Of a stretch of DNA of 64,000 nt, positions 52,963 to 62,924 are shown piece after piece (positions within the stretch are counted from its first letter, which is position 1; each line of letters begins with the position of its first letter). The position numbers and the translations under genes are program-made. This DNA is from a virus. The stretch covers positions 51,536 to 115,535 of IMG/VR virus record IMGVR_UViG_3300025098_000018; one strand, given 5' to 3'. The notes under the pieces are model-generated. The model had not been told where the DNA came from. It saw only the letters and a list, made by a program, of their open reading frames with translations, and did no database searches.

Positions 52963-55900
52963 TTAAGGGAATTCTACACCGCTATTTGTAATTACAAAGT
53001 CCATTGCAATAAACTCAACAGCTCGAGTTGGTACAACAACAATACGACCATTCAATCTATTGTTATCCACATCCTCAGCAGAGTTATTTGTGTCGTCCAT
53101 GATTACGCGGAAATCTTCAATACCTTGACGAACTCTAACGTCTGCCAAAATCGAAGATGTTCTTGAAATAAAACGGTTTCTTGTTGCTGCATCATTTTGC
53201 TCAAATAGCAAACCTTGTGCAACTTTCTGAATTCTTCTCTTGATATTAATCATTAATCGTCTAACGTTAACTCTATCAAGTGCTGTTCTTGCAATTTGCG
53301 TTGTCTTCTGACCAAATATAACAAACTGATTATTTGGGAAGTTCGCAATTGGATTGATTCGTGCCTCGTAAAGAGTATCACGATCTGCTGCGTTTAATCT
53401 TACATCAAGACTTGTAACATTAGGTAGAGCACCACGAGAAAATCCTGCAGGAGCAAACCAAGGACTTTGGTTTGCGTCTGTTCTTGCAAGTGCACCTAAA
53501 GCAACAGCTGATGATGGTACACGCTTAGCTCTATGATTTGTCTGTCTAGCATTTTCATCATCACCACTGTCTTTAATCATTACATCAGGAAAATACGTTG
53601 CAACATATGATGAATCAAGCTCACGCTGGTCGAAGATAGAAGATGTCAAATCAACATCTGCTGTTCCTGTTGCAATACCACGAGATGAAACAAATATTCT
53701 TTCGTTATCTTTAGTGTAATGAGGAATATCCATTAAATAAATTGCTTTGCCATAATCTCTTACACGACGTGCTGCATAATCTGAAATGAGTGATTCACGA
53801 ATTCCCGGAACAACCAAGACATTATGATCAATAATCATCTCATCAGTCATAACTAATATAGCATTTCTATATGATATAACAGCATTGTTATTTAATTCTT
53901 TACCTTGCATAGGATCAGCATCATCAGTACCGTCTAGACCACTTGTATAACCACCGTCGCCTGCATGTCCACCTAAATCAACTGATGTTGCTCTATCTGT
54001 AAAGAAAGCATCGTCTCTATTTAAAATGTTAACGCCGTCAAAACCACCATAAAAAGGAGCAGTAAACTTAGCCATCTGGCTGTATTTATTAAACTTTGTA
54101 ATATCTTCAGCTAGCAACTTAGCCATTGTAGCTCTTGTATTTCTAAATGGTCTCATTGTTCCATTAGCATCGCCTGTAGAAGTTAAGGTTGCTGTAAATA
54201 TTTCGCCTACAACATTATTTGATATACCTGCAGCTGTGTTGTCAGGAGTTGTTAATATTTCATAAGTTGTACCTACAATTAAAGCATTTGAAGCTACAGT
54301 ACTTAATTCTCCTATGAAAGGATCGTTAGCACTAGAATCAGCATCCATATCAATTGTATGATTAACTGCATCATAAAATGCACTGTCAACATCAGCGTTT
54401 CTTACATAAACAGCTTCCAAGAATGCATCAAGAGGACTACCTTGAATTGATGCTACTGTACTTCCTGGGAATGCTACTTTTGCAAGACTAAATTTGTTAT
54501 TGTTAAACTTATCTGCAGCTGTTCCACTAAACTTAACTTCGTCTCTTTTTGCAAGAAATTTTGTCAAAGATCTAATTAAAGGATTAAAGTCTGTAGAAAG
54601 ACTGTCATTTGGTCGATCAATATTTGAAACTCTAGAAGTATGAAGCCCCCAATAAAGAGATGTCTTTACGTTTTCTTGTGAAGTCTTTAAACCAGTTTCT
54701 TTGTTAAGAGCTTGCCCAAAGTATTCTTGAAAATATGCGCCTGCATTATTAAGCATGCTACCTTTTGTAACCTTGGATCTAAAAGGTAAAGGAGGCAAAA
54801 TTGAACTACCTAACGCATTTAAAACTGATGATGAATCAACTACTTTGCCTAGAAGCAAACTATTAACTGTTGTTGCGTTGGCATCTTTTCCGTCACTTGT
54901 AGTTTTTAAAGCGGGTATGCCTCTAAACCCAAAAGGAAGCGCGTCATCTGGAGCTTCGCCTCTCATAACGTCTTTTGACATAACAACACGAATTCTAGAC
55001 GACTTGCTTTGGAATGTTCCTTCTCTTACAAGTCTCTTTTCATCTTCAGAATCAACGTCTAAAGAAAGCATTACTTTTTGATCACCAATTAATCTTGCAA
55101 TATAATTTTTTGCGTCAGGATCTAAAGAGCATCTGCTATATGACTCGAGAATAACTGGTGCTTCATCTGTATCATCAATTTTTCGAAGTTGGACAGAAAA
55201 TGTTCCATACTTATAATTCTTTTGAGTTGATGCCTTAATGTTTGCAATAGAAATTTTATAACTTCCACTTGCATATGCACCATCATCAAGTGATTCAAAG
55301 TGGAAAAGATCGTATTCTTTCTTGCCAAAAGGTTGGGAGATAAAAGACGTTGTTTGAGGTGCAGTAAACCTAGATACAAAGTCACCATACAAATCTATAT
55401 TTTCACTATTACCTCTTACAACACCAACACGATCAGCTACATCTTTAACTTCAGCAATTTCGCTATCTACAGGAAAGTCTGCATATAAAAAGTGTTTTTC
55501 TTTTGTAAAGCTATAAGGATCTGTGTTTAAAACTTTTGCAATGTATTGCGTAGAAGAAGGGTCTAATGATACTGTATAAGGATCAGCATCTGTATCATCA
55601 TCATGCTTCATTATCCATAGCTTAAATAATCCGGAAGCTGGAGTTGCAGTATCATTAGTACCACTCGATTGGCCAACAGTTGTATCTGAGGCTTCACTAA
55701 TCCTAAGAGTATAATCTTTATGCATAAAAATCATAGCACGAACTAATTGAACTTCTCTATCAGAGCTATTGACATCTTGTAAAGCACCGCCATTGTCTGA
55801 TGGGTCTGGATCCATTGATGTCTTATGTGAGTCGTTATCGTTAAAAATACCATAAGTAACGTGTTCTGCCAAGTTAATTTCATGCTCTGCAACAATAAAT

Positions 55901-56274
55901 TGTACTGCGCCACGTGCTCTATCTGTTTCGCCTCCTGCTGTAAGAGCTGTTCCATCAATCTTAAAGCCTGCGTAATTATTTGTGCCTGCAGCTGCAGATT
56001 TTCCTGAGCCTAAGATGCGGCAGAATGTTGCTGCTTTTCCGCCGTTTGTAAAGAATTCACTGACAGCATGGGCAGCAGACGTGTCTTGATCTGGCATACC
56101 GAATTCTCTAATAAATTCATCAACACTTGTTACTGTTTTAGGTACGAATGCTTGTCCTTTTTGGGCAGGACCAATTACACCAACCGGTGTAGCTGTATTT
56201 CGTGTAAGAGGTCTACTAATGACTTCGATCTCTCGCTCGAAAAATCCTGGAGACTTAAATGTCTGTTCTGCCAT
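52963..56274 (-). CDS. Tail sheath homologue 1
   Basis: 1103 residues. N-terminus FEREIEVISRPLTRN, PVGVIGPAQKGQAFVPKT (26-43), the core FYGGFDGVNILNRDDAF, YAARRVRDYGKAIYLMD, and the C-terminal VIFGQKTTQIARTALDRVNV, MINIKRRIQKV, GIEDFRVIMDD and VEFIAMDFVITNSGVEFP match the sheath family from end to end. The extra length lies in outer domains in the first 700 residues. It contracts around the tube to drive DNA injection. It is the first sheath gene after the neck genes and probably the main subunit, but relative use of the three copies cannot be told from sequence. Confidence 0.92.
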   Translation of the reverse strand: MAEQTFKSPGFFEREIEVISRPLTRNTATPVGVIGPAQKGQAFVPKTVTSVDEFIREFGMPDQDTSAAHAVSEFFTNGGKAATFCRILGSGKSAAAGTNNYAGFKIDGTALTAGGETDRARGAVQFIVAEHEINLAEHVTYGIFNDNDSHKTSMDPDPSDNGGALQDVNSSDREVQLVRAMIFMHKDYTLRISEASDTTVGQSSGTNDTATPASGLFKLWIMKHDDDTDADPYTVSLDPSSTQYIAKVLNTDPYSFTKEKHFLYADFPVDSEIAEVKDVADRVGVVRGNSENIDLYGDFVSRFTAPQTTSFISQPFGKKEYDLFHFESLDDGAYASGSYKISIANIKASTQKNYKYGTFSVQLRKIDDTDEAPVILESYSRCSLDPDAKNYIARLIGDQKVMLSLDVDSEDEKRLVREGTFQSKSSRIRVVMSKDVMRGEAPDDALPFGFRGIPALKTTSDGKDANATTVNSLLLGKVVDSSSVLNALGSSILPPLPFRSKVTKGSMLNNAGAYFQEYFGQALNKETGLKTSQENVKTSLYWGLHTSRVSNIDRPNDSLSTDFNPLIRSLTKFLAKRDEVKFSGTAADKFNNNKFSLAKVAFPGSTVASIQGSPLDAFLEAVYVRNADVDSAFYDAVNHTIDMDADSSANDPFIGELSTVASNALIVGTTYEILTTPDNTAAGISNNVVGEIFTATLTSTGDANGTMRPFRNTRATMAKLLAEDITKFNKYSQMAKFTAPFYGGFDGVNILNRDDAFFTDRATSVDLGGHAGDGGYTSGLDGTDDADPMQGKELNNNAVISYRNAILVMTDEMIIDHNVLVVPGIRESLISDYAARRVRDYGKAIYLMDIPHYTKDNERIFVSSRGIATGTADVDLTSSIFDQRELDSSYVATYFPDVMIKDSGDDENARQTNHRAKRVPSSAVALGALARTDANQSPWFAPAGFSRGALPNVTSLDVRLNAADRDTLYEARINPIANFPNNQFVIFGQKTTQIARTALDRVNVRRLMINIKRRIQKVAQGLLFEQNDAATRNRFISRTSSILADVRVRQGIEDFRVIMDDTNNSAEDVDNNRLNGRIVVVPTRAVEFIAMDFVITNSGVEFP

Positions 56275-59871: not shown

Positions 59872-60183
59872 TTATAAAAGTTCTAAAGATAATGACCCAG
59901 AAACTTTTTTAGTACCGTCTTCTAGTAAGACTTCAGCTTTTATCAAAAAGCCTTCTTCATCATTTCTTACATATGTAACAACACCTTGTCGACCATCTTT
60001 AACTAATTTAACTTTATCATCAATATTTAGTTTTAGTTTAGCAGGTACTGGCTCAGCAACTTTCTTTGGCTCAGCAACTTTCTTTGGCTCAGCAACCTTC
60101 TTTGACTCAGCAACTTTCTTTGGCTCAGCAACTTTCTTTGGCTCAGCAACCTTCTTTGATTCTTTAACTTCTCTTTTACTCAT
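59872..60183 (-). CDS. KKVAEP-repeat protein with SH3/KOW-like domain
   Basis: 103 residues. The N-terminal half is six tandem hexapeptides (KKVAEP or KKVAES), Lys-rich and probably extended. The C-terminal half (KLKLNIDDKVKLVKDGRQGVVTYV..., then GFLIKAEVLLEDGTKK) is a small beta-barrel like SH3/KOW modules. The repeats could bind DNA or act as a flexible tether on the virion. It follows the 309-residue virion-type gene by 19 bases and is closed by a terminator. Function unknown. Confidence 0.75.
   Translation of the reverse strand: MSKREVKESKKVAEPKKVAEPKKVAESKKVAEPKKVAEPKKVAEPVPAKLKLNIDDKVKLVKDGRQGVVTYVRNDEEGFLIKAEVLLEDGTKKVSGSLSLELL
60050..60157. repeat. Six tandem 18-bp repeats
   Basis: An 18-bp unit (GGCTCAGCAACTTTCTTT on the plus strand, with small changes such as ACC for ACT and GAC for GGC) repeated six times, encoding the KKVAEP hexapeptides. 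The near identity at DNA level points to recent expansion by slippage. Confidence 0.85.
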
Positions 60184-60202: not shown

Positions 60203-61132
60203 TTAAGCGCTAGTAATTCCAGCGTCAGCTGCAGAAGCGCCTGTGACTGCCCAAACGCTAGTGCCATCGTATCTAAGTATCATATAGTCACCTGCAACAG
60301 CAGCTGCAGCAAATGTAACTTTTGTGTCTGTTGCAGCAAAAGGTGTATGACCATCAGTTGCAACTGTACCACCTACAAATGTTGCATCAAAAGTACCTTT
60401 TGTATTCGTATTGTCAACAGGCAAAATAATATCAATAGTATTTGCTGCAGTAGCACTCATCATGTAACGAAGCTCAACTCCAGAAGCGTCAGAATCTCTT
60501 GTATCAACTCCGTCGGCAAATCCTGTAATTGTTGGTGTATTTGTAAAAGTAGGCATAGTTATTGTGCCGTTGTTGGAAACTCCTACAGAGTTAGCTTCTA
60601 TTGTCAAACTGGCACCTGCATCTGTCTGTGTAAAAGTCACATCAGACATAGCTGTAAGTACATTATTTGCTCCTACGCCGGTTAATGTGTTGTTTAAATG
60701 ATCTATAGCTTGTGTTGCATTTGGTGCTGCTCCTATTTCTAGTCCAAAAGAACCGTCTGCTTGCAAAACTCCATTTGCAGCGCCACCAGCATCAGCAACA
60801 GCTGTCAATACAAATGTTCTACCAAAGACATTATTAAATGAAAATTTATCTCCTACTGTTAGTATACCAGCATTAGCTCCATTTAAGTGAATTTTTCCAG
60901 AAGTTTTTCTTCCAGCAAAGTTTGGTAATGTAATAGTACTTCCTTGACTTTGTGCTGGAATTAGATATTCTCTTCCACTGTCCGCTTTAGCGGGACTTTG
61001 TAAAGCTGCTGCATCTCCAAGCGCTGTAACTTTTTTTCTTGTATTAGTAATGACGCCTTGCAAATTAATTTCAGAGCCGCCAGACTTTTTACTAATTAAA
61101 CCTTTTGACAAGGTATATTCTAAACTTGGCAT
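60203..61132 (-). CDS. Virion-type beta protein, paralogue of the next gene
   Basis: 309 residues. The N-terminus LEYTLSKGLISKKSGGSEINLQG and C-terminus YMILRYDGTSVWAVTGASAADAGI match the 167-residue protein at 61155 (VEYTAEKGLVQKSG..., VELFSDGTKWFVRGQSAAVAGL). Between them sits an extra domain (about 85-200) with FSFNNVFGRTFVLTAV, ATQAIDHLNNTLTG and a Thr/Asn-rich strand region resembling the inserted repeats of sheath homologue 2. It is probably a capsid decoration or fibre-type structural protein. The upstream gap has AGGAG. Confidence 0.65.
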   Translation of the reverse strand: MPSLEYTLSKGLISKKSGGSEINLQGVITNTRKKVTALGDAAALQSPAKADSGREYLIPAQSQGSTITLPNFAGRKTSGKIHLNGANAGILTVGDKFSFNNVFGRTFVLTAVADAGGAANGVLQADGSFGLEIGAAPNATQAIDHLNNTLTGVGANNVLTAMSDVTFTQTDAGASLTIEANSVGVSNNGTITMPTFTNTPTITGFADGVDTRDSDASGVELRYMMSATAANTIDIILPVDNTNTKGTFDATFVGGTVATDGHTPFAATDTKVTFAAAAVAGDYMILRYDGTSVWAVTGASAADAGITSA

Positions 61133-61154: not shown

Positions 61155-61658
61155 TTATGCGCCGACAAATGCTAAACCAGCTACTGCAGCTGACTGACCT
61201 CTTACAAACCATTTTGTTCCATCTGAAAATAATTCAACTGTATCACCAGCTAAAGATCCGGCATTTTGGTCAAATGTAATATCTTCATCGCCAGCAGCTG
61301 CTGTATCAACGCCGTCTGTTGCAACAATATGACCAACAAAGTCATCGTCAGCGTGCCCTACTGATATTGTTACATCCGATGCAGCTGCATTTCCTGCTTG
61401 TACTAAGATAAACTTATAACATGTACCTTCATCGCCTGTTCCGTTTAGTCTTGGTAATGCTATATCATATGCTGCTCCAGCTTGAGAAGCTGTAACTAAT
61501 ATGGTCTTTCCAGAATCTGCTACAGTTAATGATGTAGCTCCGCTTACTGATTTAATTCCTGAACGATGACCAAATAATTGTCCCTGTAAGTCAAGGCTTG
61601 CTGTTGTTCCTGATTTTTGTACTAAGCCTTTTTCGGCTGTATATTCTACTACTGGCAT
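61155..61658 (-). CDS. Virion-type beta protein with structured leader
   Basis: 167 residues, Ala/Gly/Thr-rich, no Cys-rich or catalytic motif. VEYTAEKGLVQKSGTTASLDLQGQ, TVADSGKTILVTASQ, DIALPRLNG, VELFSDGTKWFVRGQ. It has the composition of an abundant virion decoration or tail-fibre-type subunit. ATG 61658 follows a very strong site (AAAGGAGG). It has its own early-type promoter (61744-61773) and a leader with RNA structure, both unusual for a structural gene. The paralogue follows 22 bases later and probably shares its message down to the terminator at 59800. Confidence 0.7.
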   Translation of the reverse strand: MPVVEYTAEKGLVQKSGTTASLDLQGQLFGHRSGIKSVSGATSLTVADSGKTILVTASQAGAAYDIALPRLNGTGDEGTCYKFILVQAGNAAASDVTISVGHADDDFVGHIVATDGVDTAAAGDEDITFDQNAGSLAGDTVELFSDGTKWFVRGQSAAVAGLAFVGA

Positions 61659-61737
61659 AACTTCCTCCTTTTAGGATAAACTTGTCCGCATGATTCCGAT
61701 GCACTGGCGGGGTCAGCTGTTATGTTCGCATCGGGCC
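61659..61737 (-). promoter_or_regulatory. GC-rich structured leader with possible pseudoknot and ribosome-site hairpin
   Basis: From the predicted start (about 61737) the message reads a 7-bp stem CCGATGC/GCATCGG (61734-61728 with 61702-61696). The loop contains CCGC, able to pair with GCGG six bases after the stem. Next, TCCT pairs with AGGA of the ribosome binding site over an AAA loop; an upstream GGA could compete for TCC. The element is far richer in GC than its surroundings. No known riboswitch class was recognised. Confidence 0.5.
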
Positions 61738-61743
61738 TATCTC

Positions 61744-61773
61744 TATATATTATTTAATTGCTGTTTTTACACA
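61744..61773 (-). promoter_or_regulatory. Phage-type promoter for the virion-type gene (TGTAAA-N16-TATATA)
   Basis: TGTGTAAA (61773-61766), 16 bases, TATATA (61749-61744). The -10 differs from TATAAT in one or two positions. It overlaps the last codons of the kinase-like gene. The transcript would begin just before the GC-rich hairpin. Confidence 0.6.
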
Positions 61774-62555
61774 TCTAACATTACAAATTTATATCTATTA
61801 CTTCCAATAACCTTTAAACCAACGTTATCTGGCTTAACTTCTTTGCTAAATTTAATTACTTCTTCACAAAAATTATCAAGCATGTCAGGAGGACTAGCAG
61901 GCACTTTTATATGTGCATAGTCTTCAGTCTCCTGTCCAAACGCTAACTCATAATACTTTATAAGCTTTTCTTTAAGAAATGTTTTAAATTCAGACAAAGA
62001 TCCACTATATCCAAACTGGGATTTTAAATTATTAAAAACTTTATCATCAGAAAATGGCACAAAGTTTGTTGTAAACAAGGGTATTAATCTTTCGACTATA
62101 ATAAAATAGTCTATAGAATTATTAAACAAACTAGGAATATTCCCTTTAACATTATATAGCTCTCCAAAAAGATGAGGATGTCTAAGCATCATTTCTTTTT
62201 CTTTTCTAGTTTCAGCAATATTTCCATCTAGCTCTTCACCAGGAATAACTAACTTAAAAATCAAGTTTGGTGCCTGATTGTGCGTAAATACAATTCTTCC
62301 AGATCCTTTTGCAAAGTATTTAAATCCAGAACTTAATATGCTTTCATACACTTTTTGAAAAAAAGTATCTTCACACACTCCAGTATCTATAAGTTGATTG
62401 AGTTCTCGTTCTTCTTCTATGTAAGCTTCTTCTAAGAGATAACCGTCTTCATCTTTAACAAGCAGACTGTTTATAAACATCATTGATACTTGTTGGTTTT
62501 TTTGTATGTTTTCTCTTAACAGATAATTTGCAATGTAATTTTTTATTAATGGCAT
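61767..62555 (-). CDS. Protein kinase-like phage protein with altered catalytic loop
   Basis: 262 residues. N-lobe features: glycine loop KGSGRIVF (83-90), K101 in LIFKLVI, E115/E118 in AETRKEKEMM, hinge IIVERLIP (152-159). Where the catalytic loop should be it reads KEVKPDNVGL (238-247), keeping K-P-D-N but with Glu in the place of the catalytic Asp, and the protein stops right after VMLDV, the DFG position. The C-lobe is thus minimal. Proteins with this outline are found in many large phages; whether they phosphorylate anything is not known to me. It follows the Cys/Asp-repeat gene. Confidence 0.6.
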   Translation of the reverse strand: MPLIKNYIANYLLRENIQKNQQVSMMFINSLLVKDEDGYLLEEAYIEEERELNQLIDTGVCEDTFFQKVYESILSSGFKYFAKGSGRIVFTHNQAPNLIFKLVIPGEELDGNIAETRKEKEMMLRHPHLFGELYNVKGNIPSLFNNSIDYFIIVERLIPLFTTNFVPFSDDKVFNNLKSQFGYSGSLSEFKTFLKEKLIKYYELAFGQETEDYAHIKVPASPPDMLDNFCEEVIKFSKEVKPDNVGLKVIGSNRYKFVMLDV

Positions 62556-62612: not shown

Positions 62613-62924
62613 TTACTCAGAATCTGCAGCCGGCTGGTCATCGCAACAGTCAGCATCATCGTCATCGCAACAGTCAGCATCATCGTCATCGCAACAGTCA
62701 TCTGTTTCTCCCATGCTTAATGATGCCTCAGCCTCCTCAGGGCTTGCGTCGGCAGCGGCCGCCTCTGCTGCTTGTCTCTCTTGCTCCTCTCGAGGTACAA
62801 GCTTATCAATAGCTTCTTGCAATGTTGATGCATCTTGCAGTGAATAAGCACCTCGTCTCTGCGCTACTTGTACTGCAGAAAGTAGAATATTGATAGATTG
62901 TACTTGTTCAGGTGATAATTGCAT
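62613..62924 (-). CDS. Small protein with Cys/Asp-rich C-terminal repeats
   Basis: 103 residues. The N-terminal 55 residues are helical (LSPEQVQSINILLSAVQVAQ, then GAYSLQDASTLQEAIDKL). An Ala/Glu-rich linker is followed by about 25 residues with three DDCCDD-type blocks (TDDCCDDDDADCCDDDDADCC), so six Cys in a strongly acidic tail. Such a tail could bind divalent metal; no family with this tail is known to me. The N-terminal part resembles a common small phage virion-neighbour protein. ATG 62924 is preceded by AAAGG. Confidence 0.7.
   Translation of the reverse strand: MQLSPEQVQSINILLSAVQVAQRRGAYSLQDASTLQEAIDKLVPREEQERQAAEAAAADASPEEAEASLSMGETDDCCDDDDADCCDDDDADCCDDQPAADSE
62638..62700. repeat. 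Tandem 24-bp repeats coding the Cys/Asp tail
   Basis: A 24-bp unit (TCATCGCAACAGTCAGCATC plus ATCG) occurs at 62638-62661 and 62662-62685 exactly, then in part from 62686. It encodes DDDDADCC. The identity suggests recent slippage expansion. Confidence 0.85.

Follow-up and report, generated by a model that had tools for sequence, protein, structure and literature searches.

The locus and its genes

The window, the whole stretch of 64,000 nt analysed from an IMG/VR virus record, carries on its minus strand a promoter box, a short GC-rich leader, and two related genes (Table 1). The AlphaFold model of the first gene product, a 167-aa protein, is a beta-rich fold (pLDDT 85.6). Foldseek ranks the capsid spike of phage Pa223 first among PDB structures (E 1.4e-5, with a TMq of only 0.44). 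The next solved matches are a tailspike depolymerase and then a phage baseplate or tail chain, and tail fibre and tropism-determinant proteins are among the matches to viral models. This likeness of the predicted fold to a capsid spike or tailspike domain agrees with the virion protein proposed in a preliminary description of the window, and the product is probably a surface spike or decoration protein.

Table 1. Features of the leader and its operon in the window (core, model R1 match: 81.4 bits, E 1.7e-20, for a sequence that itself belongs to the seed).
Feature	Position	Strand	Evidence
Promoter box ATATATA, -12 to -6	61744..61750	-	Column counts, 44 distinct upstream 30-mers
Conserved RNA core, 55 nt	61684..61738	-	Begins at predicted +1 A; model R1 match
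P1 5' strand CCGATGC	61728..61734	-	Two-sided changes in all 7 pairs of P1; 98.6% paired
Joining segment GAACATAACA	61718..61727	-	Conserved, unpaired; family length mostly 8-11 nt
P2 5' strand GCTG	61714..61717	-	12 P2 sequence types, 97.5% paired
Pseudoknot (PK) 5' strand CCGC	61707..61710	-	Directly adjoins P2; 4/4 pairs two-sided, 100% paired
P2 3' strand CAGT	61703..61706	-	Pair counts on aligned leaders
P1 3' strand GCATCGG	61696..61702	-	Pair counts on aligned leaders
Joining segment AAUCAU, near-invariant	61690..61695	-	A, C, U at positions 2, 4, 6 in 40/40
PK 3' strand GCGG	61686..61689	-	Covariation and PK changes on connector tree
Lineage-specific SD-occluding hairpin UCCU(AAA)AGGA	61666..61676	-	Sister leaders have UCCU/AGGA or UCAC/GUGA
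Shine-Dalgarno (SD) AGGAGG	61664..61669	-	Sequence
First gene, 167 aa, MPVVEYTAEKGLVQ.., probable spike-like virion protein	61155..61658	-	AlphaFold and Foldseek
Second gene, 309 aa, partial paralogue of the 167-aa gene with the same N-terminus	60203..61132	-	Sequence comparison

Several neighbouring genes on the same strand have features of their own. A 103-aa protein (62613-62924) has an N-terminus that is highly conserved in relatives, and its copy in the window ends in a repetitive Asp/Cys tail (DDCCDDDDADCCDDDDADCC), which may bind metal and may reflect a repeat expansion in the DNA. Between this gene and the leader lies a 262-aa gene (61767-62555) that is missing at this place in the relatives compared; it matches no Pfam family and only weakly a PHROG (E 0.074). 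A lysine-rich protein with KKVAEP repeats is encoded at 59872-60183, and similar genes precede the spike genes in some relatives and come after them in others. The tail sheath protein (52963-56274) is unusually long at 1103 aa, and its matches to sheath domains are mostly C-terminal.

Relatives were gathered by a DNA pattern and by alignment of the upstream 103-aa protein and of the head-tail connector. The leader is present on about 55 IMG/VR contigs, which belong to uncultured, mostly marine T4-like viruses. Connector relatives at 52-83% identity share the leader in their upstream stretches, while their first proteins differ. For the 167-aa gene, one other contig, L002 from the same virus, carries an identical copy, and there is one weak match besides. 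In cultured phages, no DNA match to the window stretch and no protein match to the 167-aa or 103-aa gene was found; connector matches in cultured or named phages reach only 27-30% identity in six records, and the leader is absent from the three of these records that were searched whole. Bacterial genomes yielded no relative of the connector. In two leaderless relatives, a Tubulin/FtsZ-like gene directly precedes the connector (L023:4755-5921 and L022:28-1185; Pfam Tubulin E 9.8e-5, below the cut-off, for the L023 copy only).

The leader is linked to the spike-like gene. Matching records reach 288 kb in length and hold one full copy of the leader apiece, and in 45 of 46 cases a gene of the MPKV..KGLVQ (MPxV..KGLVQ) type lies within 3 kb of it. 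The exception, L135, retains only an ATG-MPKVSYL-stop remnant and has an imperfect P1 helix. Among leaderless connector relatives with enough upstream sequence, the spike-like gene occurs in none of 15, as judged on the stretch around the connector. Another gene, most often lysine-rich and KOW-like, comes first in 13 of 46 operons, so the leader does not belong to any single start codon. In the L037 record, leader and gene stand together about 14 kb from the connector; four further contigs (L061, L066, L069, and L077) carry a near-identical leader and first gene, yet fall in separate parts of the connector tree. The placing of these four contigs suggests that leader and gene have been exchanged between phages as a unit. 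The spike protein is variable past its first ~15 residues, whereas the RNA is strongly conserved.

Structure and covariation of the leader RNA

Across the family, the box ATAT(A/T)TA occupies a fixed position from -12 to -6 and resembles a T4-type late promoter; position -1 is a pyrimidine in 43 of 44 sequences, and +1 is A in all 44. Transcription would accordingly be placed at the first A of the core (61738), in keeping with the earlier prediction that the leader begins at the transcription start. P1 begins 4 nt from this predicted +1 in every member, and the promoter-to-stem distance is fixed.

From 61738, the minus strand reads AGGC, CCGATGC, GAACATAACA, GCTG, ACC, CCGC, CAGT, GCATCGG, AATCAT, GCGG, AC, and AAGTTTATCCTAAAAGGAGGAAGTT, followed by ATG at 61658, and all elements named earlier can be read directly from it. 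P1 comprises 7 bp, P2 is an inner 4-bp hairpin, and PK adds 4 bp ahead of the ribosome binding site of the 167-aa gene. P2 (GCTG/CAGT) and the conserved joining segments were absent from the preliminary description and were found here. The core is 60% GC, against 21-29% just upstream, as expected of the GC-rich leader noted in AT-rich DNA.

Two alignments were used for covariation. A4 holds 11 rows aligned with MAFFT free of structure, and A6 holds 44 matches (40 distinct leaders) fitted to P1 and P2, PK not being in model R1. Three sequences with MAFFT gaps misplaced in P1 were kept outside the seed and later recovered by the model; L073 and L075, outside the model, were recovered by R2 at 4.5e-9 and 1.4e-7. 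In A4, the 15 pairs are 100% standard and nine show two-sided changes. In A6, standard pairs fill 98.7% of paired cells, a share that falls to 77.6% in shuffled controls and to 21-36% once the partners are slid along; two-sided changes occur in 13 of 15 pairs and in 108 cells, versus 23 cells in the control. The P1 and P2 counts on A6 lean towards structure, since the alignment was fitted to these helices, and the PK counts are free of this lean. PK is complementary in every A6 sequence, with all four pairs covarying at 100%, and when column pairs are ranked by APC-corrected mutual information, the first 10 all belong to the proposed structure, the four of PK included. Comparison with related phage leaders thus confirms both the 7-bp stem and the CCGC/GCGG pseudoknot that had been proposed from the window.

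The family holds 11 PK types. They include CCGC/GCGG, UCGC/GCGA, CCAC/GUGG, CUGC/GCAG, and CCGA/UCGG, as well as CCCG/CGGG, UCGA/UCGA, GCGC/GCGC, AUAC/GUAU, and UCCC/GGGA. On the connector tree, the PK state has changed at least 21 times with complementarity retained. Paired positions hold 31 G-U cells and 3 A-C cells, which identifies the sense strand as the RNA. The near-invariant unpaired nucleotides are A1, A27, A48, C50, and U52 in A6 columns. Weak mutual information links columns 35 and 49 (window 61705 in P2 and 61693 in the AAUCAU segment), a possible tertiary contact.

Minimum free energy gives a different picture. The window leader folds no lower than its shuffles (z 0.18 and -0.01), so single-sequence folding is no evidence for structure, and z-scores near 0 are what a chance structure in a GC-rich leader would give. 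Chance is nevertheless refuted by the paired fraction and the two-sided cells measured against their controls, and has next to no probability. A recombination or regulatory site acting as DNA would account for an inverted repeat that adjoins the promoter and for the apparent exchange of leader and gene between phages. The G-U asymmetry, however, indicates a single-stranded sense RNA, the covarying pseudoknot pairing would be senseless in duplex DNA, and the core begins at +1 and leads into the SD; the DNA-level reading is rejected as highly improbable. The leader is almost certainly a real structured RNA, as judged from its pattern of substitutions.

Ribosome binding site and the riboswitch question

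The distance from core to AUG varies from 12 to 41 nt across the family, and the pairing around the ribosome site varies as well. The hairpin earlier proposed to cover the SD pairs UCCU (61676-61673) with AGGA (61669-61666) in the window. It holds within the window's clade, where the SD is covered by UCCU/AGGA or by the compensated UCAC/GUGA, and does not extend to members with a spacer of 18 nt or less, which lack it and in which the SD closely follows the pseudoknot. The L021 leader has AACCU/AGGUU at the ribosome site. The suggestion that GGA (61687-61685) pairs with TCC in a switch-like choice was abandoned as a family feature: TCC is found in only about 10 of 46 leaders, UCAC members cannot form the pairing, and the GG lies in the covarying pseudoknot. 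Among the proposed and visible alternatives examined, no SD-masking or alternative pairing is common to all members, and no conserved expression platform with mutually exclusive structures, as expected of a riboswitch, was seen.

Searches of Rfam 15 with the window and seven relatives gave no match overlapping the leader, with E limits of 5 and 3, and the L129 leader gave nothing near the cut-off. For the window's leader alone, the best match was the hsp17 thermometer (E 2; 14.4 bits, where the gathering score is 45), which was discarded because it covers the SD hairpin only. With covariation and no Rfam 15 match, the view that this is an undescribed structured leader RNA stands: the family is apparently new, although large viral structured-RNA screens may already hold an entry.

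SAM-II and preQ1-II are compact pseudoknotted translational riboswitches with a short aptamer and a pseudoknot beside or over the SD. The present leader differs in that PK excludes the SD, the gene is non-metabolic, and Rfam gives no match. A small-molecule or ion riboswitch, with an aptamer built from the joining segments and the pseudoknot and a ligand that governs access to the SD, would explain the compact fold beside the SD and the near-invariant unpaired nucleotides across divergent phages. Yet the linked gene is spike-like, a search of bacterial genomes found no relative of the neighbouring connector, and neither an Rfam aptamer match nor a conserved alternative structure was seen; this explanation is unlikely. 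A broader version, a ligand-sensing RNA of a new class (riboswitch or protein-sensing switch) that sets the amount of spike-like protein per particle and is exchanged with the spike gene, is rather unlikely.

Precedents and a model for spike-operon control

Two kinds of phage RNA offer comparisons. The structured RNAs manA (RF01745) and wcaG (RF01761) occur in marine metagenomes and cyanophages (PMC2864571). Like the present leader, they are structured leaders that comparative genomics revealed in marine T4-like phages; the genes downstream of them are metabolic or serve exopolysaccharide synthesis or photosynthesis (PMC2864571), rather than being spike-like, and their Rfam models do not match the leader. 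The T4 gene 32 operator, a pseudoknot adjoining the ribosome binding site in the 5' leader, is bound and repressed by the product of its own gene (PMC535899). It consists of a pseudoknot of about 28 nt with a long UUAAA-rich tail before the gene for the single-strand-binding protein gp32 (PMC535899). In both RNAs, a pseudoknot precedes the SD of a T4-type phage mRNA, a resemblance and not a membership. Unlike the operator, the leader nests P2 inside P1 in one hairpin and pairs its inner loop with sequence 3' of P1, its SD lies within about 30 nt, and the gene downstream is a late spike-like gene and not gp32. The UUAAA repeats are absent from most leaders, and no homology between the two RNAs was seen. 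The operator is a precedent for the mode of control, not for the family.

The reading preferred here, at a probability of about 0.6, is that the leaders form a new family of pseudoknotted RNAs that act in cis from the 5' end of the mRNA and control the spike operon, probably as protein-bound operators. An effect of the leader on expression of the operon is very likely; binding of a protein as the specific mode has slightly less than an even chance. In this model, P1, P2, and PK would stack, with the two conserved joining segments lying against the stack as a binding surface. Stacking of the three helices is plausible because in most members P2 runs straight into P1 and PK, with no linker between. 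P1 and P2 together make 11 bp, about one A-form turn, so the 6-nt AAUCAU could span back to the pseudoknot. A binding surface is suggested by the near-invariant AAUCAU nucleotides and the A-rich upstream joining segment. The folded leader, adjoining the SD, would set ribosome access or the life of the operon's mRNA, and a phage (or host) protein would most likely use it as a translational operator to adjust spike dosage, perhaps under autogenous control. Since the gene has no metabolic role, a protein ligand is likelier than a metabolite.

A constitutive role, as a stabiliser of the mRNA at its 5' end or an enhancer of translation, is possible, if doubtful. The knotted 5' end would block 5'-end-dependent decay and keep the SD open free of any ligand, which suits the fixed distance between +1 and P1 and a probable virion surface protein as the product. 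However, the leader occurs once per record and not ahead of other late genes, the near-invariant unpaired nucleotides exceed what a decay block needs, and the window's clade has added a hairpin that occludes the SD. Gene-specific control is likelier than a general feature of late mRNAs, because the leader is single-copy and linked to the spike-like gene.

To our knowledge, conserved structured leaders are not known from the late virion operons of T4-like phages. The one described here has strong covariation support and is linked to a surface protein that changes fast. The near-invariant unpaired positions in its fold of 55 nt invite a search for a binding partner, and the leader provides a testable handle on the control of spike dosage in uncultured phages.
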